Source: an uncultured Alphaproteobacteria bacterium
GTDB taxonomy: Bacteria > Pseudomonadota > Alphaproteobacteria > RF32 > CAG-239
Direction: 5' to 3'
DNA length: 64,000 bases
Assembly: GCA_944391505.1 (NCBI GenBank)
Contig: CALXTV010000001.1
Coordinates: 98,651 to 162,650 of the forward strand
The notes beneath the pieces were generated by a model. The model ran no database searches, had not been told where the DNA came from, and was given only the letters and a program-made list of their open reading frames with translations. Positions within the stretch are counted from its first letter, which is position 1. Every line of letters starts with the position of its first letter. Positions 11,692 to 19,520 of this stretch are shown here, in pieces. Both the position numbers and the translations under genes were made by a program.

Positions 11692-12495
11692 TCAACGGCC
11701 GCCAAGTTCTCTTTCCAGCCTTTTAAGACGCATAACTGCATCTTCTTTTCCCGCATTCATCGCTTTTCTGACCAGTTTGCCGCAGCGTTCCAGATGTTTG
11801 TCTTTGTCACCGTCGGCAACCTCTTTGGCAAAAGTGGCAAAGTCCTCGCCCTGCCCGGTTACAAACGCCGGCTCTTTTCCGCCGGTTCGATAAACTTCGA
11901 TTTTAACCCCTTTTTTGTCTGCCTTTTCCAGAAAATCCATCATTTCCATTGACCGGATTATTGAATCGTTGCTGTCGACTTCCAGCGGATTCCCGCCCGG
12001 ATAGGCATCTCGGCCGCAGGCATATGCGGTATAATTCTCATCATATTTAAGTTTTCGTTCTTCAACATTAAGCGCACTGGCATACATATCATTAACCACC
12101 GCTTTCAGCGCTACCCCGTAACCAAGCGACTTTACGCCGCCGACCAGCCTGCCTGCATCGGACATCGACATCGCGTCATAAACAATGTCATATTTTCGCC
12201 GAACCGCCTCGGTCAAAACCGCCTGTGTTACTTTCATGGCAAAATCGCCGATTTCATGATCATAGGGATTATCTCGCGGATCAATACCGACGGCGGCGTA
12301 ATAATCCGCAACATACGCATCCGGCGAAATAACCGCCGCATTTTCAAAACGTTCCGTCAGTGACGATTTTCCGCTTCCCTGCGCACCGAGCACCAACGTA
12401 AAAGTCGGTTTTCCGGACGGCTTCAAACCGTTCAATGCTTTTCTTTTGCTGTTTTCGATAAAAATTTGTTGCTCATCTTCTGCCAGTTCCAACAT
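11692..12495 (-). CDS. Zeta-toxin-like P-loop kinase
   Basis: A 267-residue protein beginning MLELAEDEQQ. The Walker A loop GAQGSGKS lies at residues 37-44, followed by ISPDAYVADYY, which corresponds to the DxxR/xxY region of zeta toxins, and YDIVYDAMSMSDAGRLVGGVKSLGYGV, matching the zeta segment in which D/E-T-M/T is followed by a helix. Zeta toxins phosphorylate UDP-N-acetylglucosamine, but many chromosomal relatives are housekeeping or uncharacterised kinases. The start was moved six codons inward because AAGGAGA stands six bases before this ATG. No epsilon-type antitoxin gene is next to it. Toxin function is therefore only a possibility. Confidence 0.7.
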   Translation of the reverse strand: MLELAEDEQQIFIENSKRKALNGLKPSGKPTFTLVLGAQGSGKSSLTERFENAAVISPDAYVADYYAAVGIDPRDNPYDHEIGDFAMKVTQAVLTEAVRRKYDIVYDAMSMSDAGRLVGGVKSLGYGVALKAVVNDMYASALNVEERKLKYDENYTAYACGRDAYPGGNPLEVDSNDSIIRSMEMMDFLEKADKKGVKIEVYRTGGKEPAFVTGQGEDFATFAKEVADGDKDKHLERCGKLVRKAMNAGKEDAVMRLKRLERELGGR

Positions 12496-12564
12496 TCTGT
12501 TCTCCTTTGTCATATAAGTAAAGAATAGAATAATTAGACAAATTTGTCAACAAAGCTTCCGGAA

Positions 12565-13979: not shown

Positions 13980-16310
13980 TCAATGCTTTTCAAACGGATT
14001 TTGATTAACGTCCTTACTGACCGAAAAGGAATCTTCCTGCAGCCACCACTCATCATTATCTTCCGGCGCTTTTTCCTCATCAAAAGACCCTTCCCGGCTC
14101 CAGCGTTCGGAAATATCTTCGGCCAAAGCGCTTTTCTTATCCTGCGGTGTTTTCATCACTTCTTCGGCAACAACATCAATCTGGTCGGCAAGATAAGCGT
14201 CGACCTCCTCTTCCCGCTCAACCTGAATTCCGGCATTTTTAAGCACGTCCAACAAAGCCGGAACGTCGGCATCTTGCACACTGCGAGCCGCGGCCGCCCC
14301 CTCGTCAAGAAAATAGGCCGTTCCTGACAAAGCTTTCTCCTTAAGCCTCTCATCACGCAAAAAATACCAGGAATCGATTCGCACCGGTAAATGATAGTAG
14401 CCCTGAACCAAAAGCAGATGCTGTCCCTTGCGGACAATGCTTTCTCTGTTCCTGCGCAAAAGATCATTGGCAATCCGATGATAATACACGGCATCGGATA
14501 AGCCCTGCTTAACGTCAAAAAGCCGACCGGATCCGGGAACCGGAATCTGCACCGACTTAGCACCATAAACCGCCAGACGGTTAAAATGCTCGCTTAAACT
14601 GCGGTTGTTTTCGGCAAACATAAGTTTATACGACGTATTGGCAATAATATCTTCCAAACCGTTCCGACCGTAACGGTCATGAATATTTTTGAGATTGTCG
14701 GTCAAAAGCATAAACGACATACCCGCCGCCGGACCGTATGTCAAACCCTCATGAAGCAGATTAAACTCCGGCAAAAGCTCAAAATCGTCAAAAACAAACA
14801 ACAGCGGCGGCATTTCTTTCTTCCTTGCCCCGTCAAGACAGGTCTTGATAAGCATATCGGTAAAAAAACGGGTCATAAAAGCCGCCGGCCGATTGTCAGC
14901 CACCGTATAAATTGTCCTTATATCGGAACTTTGCCGCAAATCGGATAAAATCAAATCACTGGAAGAGGTTCTTTCCCGCACCGAATTTTTACGAAAAACC
15001 ATCAACGGTTCAAGCATTACCGCAAAAATCATCTTGCGCTGCTTCTTGGTCAGATAATAAAGATGCTGCATGACCTGATTGGCACGCGGATGATATCCGA
15101 AAAACTCCGCTTCCCGGATAAAATTGCCGAGCATGGTTTTCCAGCGCCCGTAAGTACGACCGGCATCTTCCTGACGTATGGTATAATAACGTTCAATCAG
15201 ACAGTCAACCATCATGGCAAAGCAAAATTCTTTTCCCTGCCAGGCCGGCGGAATATTATCCCAGCTTCCGATCGGCAGATAATTGTCAACGATCAGCTTG
15301 TTGTTCTGCAGATTCTCGATAGCCTGCGAAGAATATGCCTCCGGCATTAACGCATAATAGCTGAGCAGAATATCTTTGTCTTCCGGGTTCAGCCTGCCAT
15401 GATCCAAAAGTTTGCCGAGAAAATAGTCGTTTGCCAGCGCCTGTTCCGTTTTTGAAACATAAAATTGCAGCAAGCCTTCCAAAGCAATCCCGGCCAGTTT
15501 TCCCCAATAATTGTCCTCTTTCTCGCCGGTAATATAACGTGCAATCCATAACAGATAATGATCCCGCGCCAATCCCTTGGGCGGCATGTTTCCTTCCGAA
15601 AACGGATTCCAGCGCGGCCACACTTCGCCGCTTTCCGGCTTGTCCAGCATATTCCAGTTAAAATAATAAACCTTGCCGAGCCGCGCGCGGTACCCGCTGG
15701 TATACTTAACCAAAGAACCTTTGCAGTCTGCCGCGACAATGCTTACATCGTCGCTTTCCAAAATACTCGGCACCGCAACCGTCGATGTTTTGCCAAGTCC
15801 CGGCGAACCCCAGCCAAAAACGGACAAAGGTTTTCCCAAATATAAAACCCGGCCGAAAAACCGGCCGAAGACACCGAAACCCTTTTCAAAAAGCCCCATT
15901 TTTTCAATATCTTCTTCCGTTGCAAAACGATTGTTCAACCGATACCACAGACGGAAGAAATAGGGGCTTTTGATAAAAACCATAATTGTCAAAAACAAAA
16001 ACGCCAGCGGAGCCAAAGACGGAATAAAAGAAGCGGTACTAAGCCGTCTAGCCAAAAAAGCCTGCTCAAAGACACTCAGCCATTCGCCGTAAGCCTCAAA
16101 CAAATACTCGGGATTCTGCCGGAGCTTCAAAAGAAATCCGCTTATATCTTTCAGCGATTTTTCATTAATGCCGTTCTGAACCAAATGCGCCGCCGACAAA
16201 CATGCCGCACCGCTGACATATAAAAACAAAAAAGACATCACCAGCCACAGGCAGCCGCGCAGCCATACCCTGCCGGTTATTTTTTCTCCGCCGGCCTTTT
16301 CATCGCTCAT
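13980..16310 (-). CDS. VirD4/TraG-type coupling-protein-like ATPase
   Basis: A 776-residue membrane ATPase of the type IV secretion coupling-protein family. Two hydrophobic segments (about residues 19-43 and 98-117) come before the ATPase domain. Walker A is GSPGLGKTS (168-176) and the next strand is VSIVAADCKGSLVKYTSGYR, as in VirD4. Walker B LLFVFDDFELLPEF (about 503-516) has D-D-F where VirD4 has D-E-F. The all-alpha insertion lies around 250-360. A charged acidic tail of about 100 residues follows. The start with GAGG five bases upstream overlaps the pentapeptide gene by 11 bases, so translation is coupled. No relaxase, VirB or other T4SS gene is nearby, so its partner machine is unknown. 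Confidence 0.8.
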   Translation of the reverse strand: MSDEKAGGEKITGRVWLRGCLWLVMSFLFLYVSGAACLSAAHLVQNGINEKSLKDISGFLLKLRQNPEYLFEAYGEWLSVFEQAFLARRLSTASFIPSLAPLAFLFLTIMVFIKSPYFFRLWYRLNNRFATEEDIEKMGLFEKGFGVFGRFFGRVLYLGKPLSVFGWGSPGLGKTSTVAVPSILESDDVSIVAADCKGSLVKYTSGYRARLGKVYYFNWNMLDKPESGEVWPRWNPFSEGNMPPKGLARDHYLLWIARYITGEKEDNYWGKLAGIALEGLLQFYVSKTEQALANDYFLGKLLDHGRLNPEDKDILLSYYALMPEAYSSQAIENLQNNKLIVDNYLPIGSWDNIPPAWQGKEFCFAMMVDCLIERYYTIRQEDAGRTYGRWKTMLGNFIREAEFFGYHPRANQVMQHLYYLTKKQRKMIFAVMLEPLMVFRKNSVRERTSSSDLILSDLRQSSDIRTIYTVADNRPAAFMTRFFTDMLIKTCLDGARKKEMPPLLFVFDDFELLPEFNLLHEGLTYGPAAGMSFMLLTDNLKNIHDRYGRNGLEDIIANTSYKLMFAENNRSLSEHFNRLAVYGAKSVQIPVPGSGRLFDVKQGLSDAVYYHRIANDLLRRNRESIVRKGQHLLLVQGYYHLPVRIDSWYFLRDERLKEKALSGTAYFLDEGAAAARSVQDADVPALLDVLKNAGIQVEREEEVDAYLADQIDVVAEEVMKTPQDKKSALAEDISERWSREGSFDEEKAPEDNDEWWLQEDSFSVSKDVNQNPFEKH

Positions 16311-17487
16311 TGCCGCCTCGGGATAAAATACGAACGTCAATCGACCGTTCTGCCGTCTTTTCTTCCCGGCGTTCCTCTTTCACCGCCTCTTCGCGTCTGA
16401 CTTCCTGTTCAAGCTCCTGCTTCTTGCTGCGGCGGTTTTCCAGTTCCTGCCGTTTATGCTCTTCTATCTGACGCCGCAAAGCAGCCTTGTTTTCATCAGC
16501 AGCTTTTTGCTGGGCGGATTTCACTTCTTCCAGAACCTTGCCGTCTTTAACCGGAGGCCGCTTGGCATTGCGCCGAAAAACTTTTTTGCCGACTTCCAGT
16601 ATTTGCTCAATACTGATACCCTCCTGATGGATTGTATCCCAAACGCCGAACTCCTTGCCGTCACCGAGCAGCAGGCTTGTCATATCAATACCGACACTGC
16701 CTTTTCCGTCTTTTTTCTTTTTGGGAGCCAGCAGCATCTTCATTTCTTCCGGCGTCGGCACACGCCCCAATGCCTGAGCAATCTGCTGAGGTGTAATGAT
16801 ACACTCGCTCAGGTCAAGCTCCATAATATTTACGCCGGTAAAATCGACGCCGGTAAAATCAACGCCGCGCAAATCCAGATTTTTCAAATCGATTTTCGTC
16901 AAATCGAGCAGCATCAGGTTTATTTTGCTGAGCTGAAGTTTGTGCGGATAATATTTGGCCAGATATTCCACCAGTTCCTGCAAATCCTCCCGCGTAATAT
17001 CGTCCATTTCGATATCCAGCAGAATGGCATTTTCAATATCGACGTCCGTCAGTTTGACATTATTCAGCTTGGCCCCGGTCAAATCGGCGCCGGAAAGCTG
17101 CGCACCGGACAAAATCGCACCGGTCAGATCGGCGCCGCGCAGATTGGCTCCGGTCAAATCAGCGCCGGAAAGATCAACACCGCGCAGATTGGCTCCGGAA
17201 AAATCGACACCTTTCAAATTGGCAACCGAAAAATTGGCATTTTCCAGATTTTCATTGGCAAACCGGCCGCCCTCAAGATTTTTACCGACAAAATCAATTT
17301 TAAAGGAAAGAAAATTATCCAAACCATCGACACGCTGAGCCGCTTCATCGACTTTGGAAACCGCTCTCCATGAACATTCGGTATCTTTTCCGGAATCCGG
17401 CTTCTGGCGCATCCGCTGTTCCTTGTAGGCGCGGGCTTTGTCTCGTAAAGAATTTATTTCCAAATCTTTTTTGCTGTCTTCTGCCAT
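16300..17487 (-). CDS. Pentapeptide-repeat protein with C-terminal coiled coil
   Basis: A 395-residue cytoplasmic-looking protein. Residues about 66-160 and 187-228 are made of pentapeptide units A(D/N)LxG, such as ANLRG, ADLTG, VDFSG and AQLSG, which form a right-handed quadrilateral beta helix. The region between has a helical break (EDLQELVEYLAKYYP). After 228 come a lysine stretch (KKKKDG), a middle domain of unknown type (about 255-305), and a strongly charged coiled coil (about 315-385). DNA mimicry as in Qnr is possible but the coiled coil suggests a scaffold. It follows the TolC-like lipoprotein by 97 bases and overlaps the VirD4-like gene, so the three probably work together. Confidence 0.8.
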   Translation of the reverse strand: MAEDSKKDLEINSLRDKARAYKEQRMRQKPDSGKDTECSWRAVSKVDEAAQRVDGLDNFLSFKIDFVGKNLEGGRFANENLENANFSVANLKGVDFSGANLRGVDLSGADLTGANLRGADLTGAILSGAQLSGADLTGAKLNNVKLTDVDIENAILLDIEMDDITREDLQELVEYLAKYYPHKLQLSKINLMLLDLTKIDLKNLDLRGVDFTGVDFTGVNIMELDLSECIITPQQIAQALGRVPTPEEMKMLLAPKKKKDGKGSVGIDMTSLLLGDGKEFGVWDTIHQEGISIEQILEVGKKVFRRNAKRPPVKDGKVLEEVKSAQQKAADENKAALRRQIEEHKRQELENRRSKKQELEQEVRREEAVKEERREEKTAERSIDVRILSRGGNER

Positions 17488-17583
17488 TGTCCGTCCGGAT
17501 AGTTTAATTCATTTCTCCGATAATAGCGCAAATTTCGATTTTTGACAAATATTTTTATAATAAAAACCTGCCGTCAAAAAATC

Positions 17584-19377
17584 CTAACGAAGCAAACACT
17601 GGACTCTGTCCCCTCTCAACTTGTTGCACAATGCCATAAAACCTCCGGATTCGGAATGAAGAACCAGACGATAAAAAATCTGTCCGTTAATCCGCGTGCG
17701 GATAACCTCGGGCTTTTTGGCCTTAAGTTCGGGATACAGCTCCTGAAGCATTTTCCATTCCAAATCCGCATTTGCACGTTCGACATAAGAACCGAGCTGC
17801 ATAATTTTTTTACGGTCATACGCCGGATCCGTATACGGGGCAAAAATATCTTCGTCATAAACAACCGGTCTCGAAACGGCAACAGATTGCGCAACCGGTA
17901 CCGTGTTTCTGTTTTCCATCAGGTCTTCCAGCCAGTTTTCCTTCTTGGCCCAGCCGTTGCTGATTTTTTCGTCATAGGCCTCTTCCGCGGGAACCGCCGC
18001 CAGCATTTCGACCATGTCTTTATTAAAGGCGGCGCGCAGTGAAACTACAATATCTTTAATTTCATTCTTAAGCAGCACACGGGTAAACGGCGAAAAACCG
18101 GCATAAAAATACAAAGCCCGCAAAGCCAAAGCTTTTTCGGCGGCAATCTGACTTTGTTCGTTTTCCAAAGTAAGCAGTTTTATCTTATCATTCAGCAGAT
18201 TAATTTCTCCGTCCATCGAAAGACGACCGCGTTCGCGCTGTTTAATGTCTTTTTTCAAATCTTTTGCCTGCTCACTGACAACGGCATAGTCTGTTTCGCT
18301 GAGCCGCACCAGATTATAAGCGACCTCGACCTGCGTAAACACCGCAATTCCCAGTTCGTCAAAAGCCGCCGTTCTGAGCCGGTCCCTGTCGGCTTCCTTA
18401 GCCTTTTTATAGGCTTCGGTTTTTTTCACAAGACCCAAGGCCAGCGTATAAGCCCGTTTTTCCAGATTCTCGGCATAAACCTTATCTTCAACGTTATAAC
18501 CGTTTATGTTCAGCCGTTCCACCTCCGGATATTTTTTCAGCAAATTATATTCGACTTCACGAAAACGGTACGAACGTCCCATTTCTCTGGCAATATCAAA
18601 TTCCGAACGATTGCTGAATGCCGAACGTTGAAAAGCCTGCACGGTCAATTTCCGATCCAAATCGTCAAGCTCGTAAAAAGTCCGTCCTTCCAGTTTCAAA
18701 TTCTTGGCCTCAGCTTTAATCAGATAAGCATATTCGGCCATTGCAAAAGCCTGTGCCTCATACATTTCTTTCAACTTAAGCAGGGCAACTTCCAAACCTT
18801 TCTTATAGCTTAGCTCCGCAGGCGTCAACCGGCCGGTACGCTCTTCTTTTTTGACAATATCGTTAAGCTTTTTCTGTTCTTTGTCCGTCAGCCGTGCGAT
18901 TTCCTTGAGCTGCTTGCTTGCAAACAATGCATCTTTATGCGTCTTTATTGAAGCAAGTGCCAAATTCTGCGAAACCTTAACAAAGATGCTGTTGTCAATA
19001 TACGAACGATTGCCGCTTAGATTGACGGTCGCATATATTACGGCATAATCCAGTGCCCGCAGACTGTCATACAGCGGATTATCTCGGCCGCTTTTAACAT
19101 TCATCATATTCTGAATAATGTCCTGCGGAGACATATTCTGATTTTGGGCAAACAGCTTTTTGTTCATCTCCTGTGCGGCAATGTCCACATTATATTTCAC
19201 GCCACGCGCCATTGACGCATAAACGTCCAGTTTGCTTCTGACCGGTTCCGGGCTTTGCGCAAAAACAAGCTCTTCAACTTCCACTTTGTTTCCGATATTG
19301 TCGGTTTCCGCCGAAGAACAACCGCCGACAATGCCCAGCACCGTTAAGACAAAAACAAACTTTTCGAACTTATTCAT
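17584..19377 (-). CDS. TolC-like lipoprotein with C-terminal SPOR-like domain
   Basis: A 597-residue lipoprotein: lipobox IVGGC with Cys20 after the hydrophobic signal. The first half has the two-repeat helical pattern of outer-membrane factor proteins: LDVYASMARGVKYNVDIAAQEM resembles the A-x-ALxxNxDLxxA start of TolC, and RALDYAVIYATVNLSG with VKVSQNLALASIKTHKDALFA resembles its strand-helix section. The same pattern recurs near residues 320-370. The last 40 residues (NGQIFYRLVLHSES...ALCNKLRGDRVQCLL) read as a SPOR peptidoglycan-binding domain. The combination is unusual. A channel or periplasmic adaptor for the cluster is plausible; the TolC assignment is by pattern only. Confidence 0.6.
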   Translation of the reverse strand: MNKFEKFVFVLTVLGIVGGCSSAETDNIGNKVEVEELVFAQSPEPVRSKLDVYASMARGVKYNVDIAAQEMNKKLFAQNQNMSPQDIIQNMMNVKSGRDNPLYDSLRALDYAVIYATVNLSGNRSYIDNSIFVKVSQNLALASIKTHKDALFASKQLKEIARLTDKEQKKLNDIVKKEERTGRLTPAELSYKKGLEVALLKLKEMYEAQAFAMAEYAYLIKAEAKNLKLEGRTFYELDDLDRKLTVQAFQRSAFSNRSEFDIAREMGRSYRFREVEYNLLKKYPEVERLNINGYNVEDKVYAENLEKRAYTLALGLVKKTEAYKKAKEADRDRLRTAAFDELGIAVFTQVEVAYNLVRLSETDYAVVSEQAKDLKKDIKQRERGRLSMDGEINLLNDKIKLLTLENEQSQIAAEKALALRALYFYAGFSPFTRVLLKNEIKDIVVSLRAAFNKDMVEMLAAVPAEEAYDEKISNGWAKKENWLEDLMENRNTVPVAQSVAVSRPVVYDEDIFAPYTDPAYDRKKIMQLGSYVERANADLEWKMLQELYPELKAKKPEVIRTRINGQIFYRLVLHSESGGFMALCNKLRGDRVQCLLR

Positions 19378-19520
19378 AGGAAAACCCCGCAGAATATAAA
19401 GAATTCCGGCTTATTACCGAACTGTAACATTATGTAACAACTTGTTAAAAGCTTTTTAGCAAGAAATTTGTTATAAGTAAACTAAATTTAGCAGCATTCC
19501 AACTTCAGAGGTAAAATCTT

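Follow-up and report, generated by a model that had tools for sequence, protein, structure and literature searches.

The 64,000-nucleotide stretch analyzed here (referred to below as the window) belongs to contig CALXTV010000001.1 of assembly GCA_944391505.1, a 36-contig genome (1.74 Mb) of a member of the gut alphaproteobacterial family CAG-239. It carries three tandem genes, all on the (-) strand, which encode a TolC-derived, barrel-less lipoprotein ending in a SPOR domain (LIPO; 17584..19377, identified by homology and fold), a pentapeptide-repeat protein (PPR; 16300..17487, identified with Pfam), and a VirD4-like ATPase, a paralogue of the type IV coupling proteins (T4CPs; 13980..16310). 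Although it resembles an export machine, this trio more probably has a structural or regulatory role in the envelope. Our best reading, a tentative one whose chances are slightly less than even, is that of a conserved envelope scaffold made from export and secretion parts, which no longer acts as an exporter and most likely positions or regulates the type IV secretion system (T4SS) of the genome. An initial annotation of the window had described three linked genes in the same direction, the ATPase and PPR genes overlapping by 11 bases. With ATG 16310 (ATGAGCGATGA) as the start of the ATPase, which is the likely one, the overlap is exactly 11 bases; this methionine (M11 of the open reading frame (ORF), which is open up to TTG 16340) is kept in at least 90% of the ATPase orthologues.

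The assignment of the ATPase to the VirD4 type was borne out: the protein matches T4SS-DNA_transf (PF02534) with a Pfam E-value of 7e-23, a TraG-D C-terminal domain match is also present, and its hydropathy shows two transmembrane segments at the N-terminus, near residues 25-54 and 101-129. Lys184 of the Walker A motif GSPGLGKT (residues 178-185; 15786..15809, (-) strand) was found in 54/54 orthologues. The Walker B motif (D518-D519; 14784..14789, (-) strand) does read DDF, as had been stated earlier. The first Asp is retained in 53/54 ATPase paralogues, and the position of the catalytic Glu is occupied by Asp in 49, Asn in 4, and Gly in 1 of them, Glu being found in 0/54. In the canonical VirD4 proteins, on the other hand, this Glu is present in 24/24 sequences, as are an Arg and a Gln at two further positions (also 24/24). 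Among the CAG-239 paralogues, the arginine-finger position holds Arg in 1/20 and the Gln position holds Gln in 0/20; the ATPase copy of a sister family retains both residues. For the arginine position, the TrwB counterpart is Arg375 according to a weak alignment (E 0.89), read together with PMC9886983. Since one active T4CP, Cag-beta, has no arginine finger in trans (PMC9886983), the loss of Arg argues for, without proving, the loss of ATP hydrolysis. Judging by these substitutions, the window ATPase is probably impaired in hydrolysis. The term motor used in the initial annotation fits poorly with a family in which the Walker B Glu is missing and, outside the sister family, the Arg finger and Gln are nearly always lost.

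Apart from these residues, the ATPase shares with the VirD4/TrwB coupling proteins the fold family, the N-terminal membrane segments, Walker A, and the TraG-D match, but its genome has a separate canonical VirD4. This second VirD4 is encoded on contig C31 and is 32% identical to the window ATPase. In the first set of family relatives drawn, nearly all the genomes carry a canonical VirD4 and about two thirds carry the paralogue as well. In a T4CP tree built with a quick method, the tool for which warns of long-branch effects, the paralogues and the canonical VirD4 proteins are split by a branch with a support of 100, and the paralogue branches are longer. As judged from these comparisons, the window ATPase is a fast-evolving duplicate of the VirD4 of the same genome. 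Its C-terminal tail carries the motif WW..ED.F...NPF (residues 765-783; 13992..14048, (-) strand), the WW..E/D part of which occurs in 53/54 orthologues; the motif is present in the sister-family ATPase too. A sequence search of the PDB with the window ATPase alone returned nothing useful, and the ATPase profile reached Cag-beta at 0.001.

The description of LIPO as a TolC-like lipoprotein was confirmed both by homology and by fold. Its lipobox cysteine, Cys20 (19318..19320, (-) strand), is invariant in 62 orthologues. A profile built from the CAG-239 lipoproteins only matches exporter TolC lipoproteins from Pseudomonas and other organisms (E 8e-15 to 1e-24) and the TolC of the sister family (6e-51). 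In the AlphaFold2 (AF2) model of LIPO (predicted local distance difference test score (pLDDT) 82.9, predicted template modelling score (pTM) 0.69), the TolC part is helical, and residues 50-452 (18022..19230, (-) strand) adopt the fold of the TolC periplasmic trunk without the barrel strands (VIA-align Z 14-15 to TolC). When the model was compared with solved structures using VIA-align, the 29 best rows were all outer membrane factors, with Z-scores of up to 15.3. Foldseek alone gave weaker matches (best E 9e-5), and the LIPO profile found no credible relative in the PDB by sequence, the relation to solved TolC structures coming from the fold search only. Between residues 49 and 460, the model has no transmembrane barrel strands. 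Exporter TolCs have a hairpin 1 of 47-53 residues, which is down to 22 in 7/7 LIPO sequences sampled across genera; hairpin 2 has retained its length but is predicted to be helical. Since both barrel segments are gone, no pore is expected, and from the model LIPO is very likely pore-less. It can hardly be the outer-envelope part of an export machine, as had been proposed. The giant-protein exporter of Pseudomonas and alphaproteobacteria (TolC, HlyD, GAF-HlyD, and M50-HlyD) includes a lipoprotein TolC which shares the lipobox, the MARAVKYN motif, and the helical trunk with LIPO, whereas LIPO lacks the barrel strands and has an added SPOR domain, and the adaptor genes occur in one genome of the order only.

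The SPOR-like end attributed to LIPO was also recovered. Residues 523-597 (17587..17811, (-) strand) show a SPOR fold matching that of RlpA (VIA-align Z 8.2, root-mean-square deviation 2.4 over 71 residues), which in LIPO is fused to a TolC trunk. The Pfam SPOR match is below the threshold in the window protein (E 0.012) and passes E 0.01 in 32/62 orthologues. The aligned LIPO orthologues have invariant residues in SPOR.

As had been noted, PPR carries pentapeptide repeats (Pfam 2e-50) and a long helical segment. The repeats form a beta-helix at residues 60-160 (17008..17310, (-) strand), most of which has an AF2 pLDDT of about 87-93 and which matches HetL/MfpA with a VIA-align Z of 18, and the C-terminal segment is modelled as a 72-residue helix (residues 316-387; 16327..16542, (-) strand), a candidate coiled coil. 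The AF2 model of the whole protein has a mean pLDDT of 70 and a pTM of 0.46. The right-handed beta-helix is common to PPR and to HetL, MfpA, and Qnr, but PPR has in addition a conserved middle region, as well as the long helix, and gyrase binding finds no support. An antisense ORF lying over the PPR gene (16456-17373, (+) strand) was taken to be a by-product of the repeat codons. PPR is a core gene, present as a single copy in 136/153 genomes of the order, and the idea that it is exclusive to a trio complex was dropped on these grounds. The proposal that it is the scaffold of this particular machine fares no better, since PPR occurs without the other two proteins in 64/153 genomes. In 4/5 of the loci read in genomes devoid of LIPO and ATPase, the PPR gene lies directly before rarA and beside a major facilitator superfamily (MFS) permease gene (AmpG-like by eye; L186:10480-11823, L187:9522-10820, L188:9931-11205, and L189:2669-3928); in the fifth genome (G009), the PPR gene is on another contig.

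The distribution of the three genes over the 153 genomes is nested: LIPO was found only alongside PPR, and the ATPase almost only alongside LIPO. All three genes are present in 64 genomes, PPR only in 64, PPR and LIPO in 8, PPR and ATPase in 1, the ATPase only in 1 (a genome 59% complete), and none in 15. The presence lists were transcribed by hand from the search listings, and the tally includes the divergent PPR of the sister family, which was seen in its locus but falls below the profile cut-off. One of the eight genomes with PPR and LIPO (G110) shows fragmented VirD4 matches and may hold the ATPase. In a genome which is 100% complete (G079), the order searches detected none of the four proteins (the two VirD4 copies, LIPO, and PPR). 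The order LIPO-PPR-ATPase and the strand are the same in more than 50 named loci. The relatives that bear names are for the most part gut metagenome-assembled genomes, Azospirillum sp. CAG:239 among them, and we are aware of no cultured representative of the family. Gene order alone was not retained as proof of a unit, since gfo, truA, rarA, and rluC are also syntenic in CAG-239. In unsaturated pairs, each of the three genes has a ratio of nonsynonymous to synonymous substitution rates (dN/dS) of 0.04-0.1, which reflects purifying selection and is far from what chance ORFs give, and the reading frames are open in the aligned orthologues of LIPO, ATPase, and PPR. The trio is likely to be a conserved functional unit.

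The genome encodes a T4SS elsewhere, with its own VirD4. Contig C10 carries genes for VirB2 (TrbC), a VirB3-like protein, VirB4, two VirB8 proteins, and a VirB9 (CagX) that ends in a SPOR domain (L206:3385-5046). A SPOR-like VirB9 tail is present in 8/8 genomes of the order read, whether or not they have the trio, and is absent from two outgroup T4SSs; the tail was seen in aligned C-termini, Pfam having been run on the source genome only. The resemblance between the LIPO and VirB9 tails (28% identity) does not go beyond both being SPOR domains. Around the trio itself, as the initial annotation had noted, no VirB, Tra, or relaxase gene was detected with Pfam among the window neighbours scanned, smaller ORFs lying outside the scan. 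In the loci read, the PPR gene adjoins rarA or other non-T4SS genes and never T4SS genes. A second TolC-like lipoprotein (about 640 aa, with a He_PIG domain) is encoded beside a VirB8-like gene in both families, even where the other flanks differ (L179:9151-11991; L180-L184), and the type IVb pilus genes PilO, PilN secretin, and TcpQ adjoin T4SS genes (L080:660-4245).

The sister family is represented by a single genome (G033), which is 79% complete. On one 59 kb contig, gfo is followed by a six-gene cluster (L044:5864-16869) encoding a TolC with a SPOR-like tail, HlyD, GAF-HlyD, an M50/HlyD protein, PPR, and the VirD4-like ATPase. This TolC is a full TolC; the start of its gene is masked. A tree built with a quick method places LIPO and the G033 TolC together on one side of a branch with a support of 98. 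Elsewhere in the order, the M50/HlyD gene was not found in any of 152 genomes (the source genome and 151 further ones). It is present in 23/385 genomes sampled from the class, and no T4CP profile match was found beside the gene in 16 of these loci. The sequences suggest a six-gene ancestor which lost three adaptors in CAG-239, but this scenario rests on one genome and is not secure.

What we infer from these data concerns the protein contacts, the behaviour towards nucleotides, the localisation, and the link with the T4SS. LIPO would be held in a membrane by its lipid anchor, its TolC-type helical trunk without a barrel would span the periplasm, and its SPOR domain would bind glycan-stripped (septal or remodelling) peptidoglycan. 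The ATPase, a duplicated VirD4, would sit in the inner membrane and probably still binds nucleotides, with poor or no hydrolysis; its role would be that of a platform for docking or regulation, the conserved C-terminal tail being a putative binding site. PPR, presumably cytosolic, with its beta-helix and long helical tail, would be the older core partner. The complex would most likely position or regulate the T4SS of the genome, the VirB9 of which likewise ends in SPOR. That the trio is an accessory of the T4SS is plausible, and we propose it with reserve. A bolder version is rather doubtful: the trio would be an envelope complex of a new type, a peptidoglycan-tethered, non-motor scaffold made up of a coupling-protein ring without catalysis, a pore-less TolC, and a pentapeptide core, and the SPOR domain shared with the SPOR-type T4SS places both at the same cell-wall sites.

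Several points weigh against a scaffold of this kind. The T4SS link is indirect, without any shared operon, and the canonical VirD4 and the VirB9-SPOR also occur where the trio is missing. An Asp sometimes does the work of the catalytic Glu, and Cag-beta is active without the trans finger, so that the ATPase may still hydrolyse ATP. PPR stands without LIPO and the ATPase in 64 genomes, and in the loci read from such genomes it was found beside an MFS permease; its main partner may be another one. Since gfo and rarA, which flank the trio, are syntenic too, the conserved order within CAG-239 carries less weight than it seems to. Lastly, only monomers were modelled.

Among the other explanations, the ATPase paralogue might enter mixed rings with the canonical VirD4 and retune the substrate choice of the T4SS, PPR serving as the substrate adaptor and LIPO as the periplasmic part. 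Its architecture is close to that of VirD4, including the N-terminal membrane segments, and degenerate duplicated T4SS genes are known in Rickettsia (virB4b, virB8a, and virB9b; PMC2653234), where only one copy per pair in the rvh T4SS keeps the conserved features (PMC2653234). The Rickettsia duplicates are those of virB4, virB8, and virB9, whereas here the duplicate is that of virD4 and is joined to non-T4SS genes. With an identity of about 32% to the canonical VirD4, a much faster rate of evolution in the paralogue, and a purely putative VirD4-VirD4 contact, this explanation is unlikely. A device of the septum or the peptidoglycan that has nothing to do with the T4SS, and in which the ring derived from VirD4 would serve as membrane anchor or organiser, would agree with the match between the LIPO SPOR fold and a structure that binds denuded glycan, and with the position of the PPR gene beside rarA or other non-T4SS genes; it has a slim chance, however, and the T4SS link is at least as natural because SPOR also occurs on the VirB9 of the same order. 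An active export or translocation machine, in which the ATPase drives a PPR-bound substrate through the envelope and LIPO is the outer part, is favoured by the invariant Walker A Lys, the first Walker B Asp, and the sister family with its full TolC, two HlyD-type adaptors, M50/HlyD protein, and ATPase retaining Arg and Gln, but in view of the missing barrel of the CAG-239 LIPO, the restriction of the M50 adaptor gene to one genome of the order, and the lack of the catalytic Glu in all 54 ATPases, it seems improbable. That the trio is merely what is left of an old exporter, in decay and now without a function, although suggested by the fact that the barrel, the catalytic residues, and the adaptor genes were lost in parallel and by the repeated loss of the ATPase and LIPO within the family, is very improbable given the low dN/dS, the invariant lipobox and SPOR residues, and the open frames.

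The trio lies in a housekeeping chromosomal region with Pfam matches to rarA, gfo, AsmA, nusA, infB, pnp, ftsK, and others. The intergenic region between LIPO and a divergent oxidoreductase gene (19378..19520) is presumed from its position to hold the trio promoter; only a weak promoter consensus match (19448-19421) was found in this region 5' of LIPO. A zeta-toxin-like kinase gene (window 11692-12513, PF06414 7e-11) lies near rarA; some relatives carry it at this site and others do not. In some genera, an accessory gene of 409-445 aa (L032:6529-7800, L037:9097-10434, and L036:9204-10478) is located between the ATPase (or PPR) gene and rarA; it has no Pfam match, and HExxH-like motifs (YHEACH, YHEMSH, and YHEAGH) were noticed by eye.

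PHROGs gave no informative match. Searches of the literature turned up nothing direct on a CAG-239 T4SS, an M50/HlyD/GAF exporter, a gut-alphaproteobacterial VirD4 paralogue, or SPOR with TolC, and no open-access paper combining type IV secretion, the SPOR domain, and VirB9 was found. In CAG-239, VirD4 and TolC, two classic export parts, have lost their defining features together, and yet they stay conserved side by side. If the reading proposed here is true, the trio would illustrate how secretion machinery can be reused to build an envelope scaffold, and the finding points to the existence, in a little-studied gut order, of peptidoglycan-anchored T4SSs whose VirB9 has a SPOR tail.

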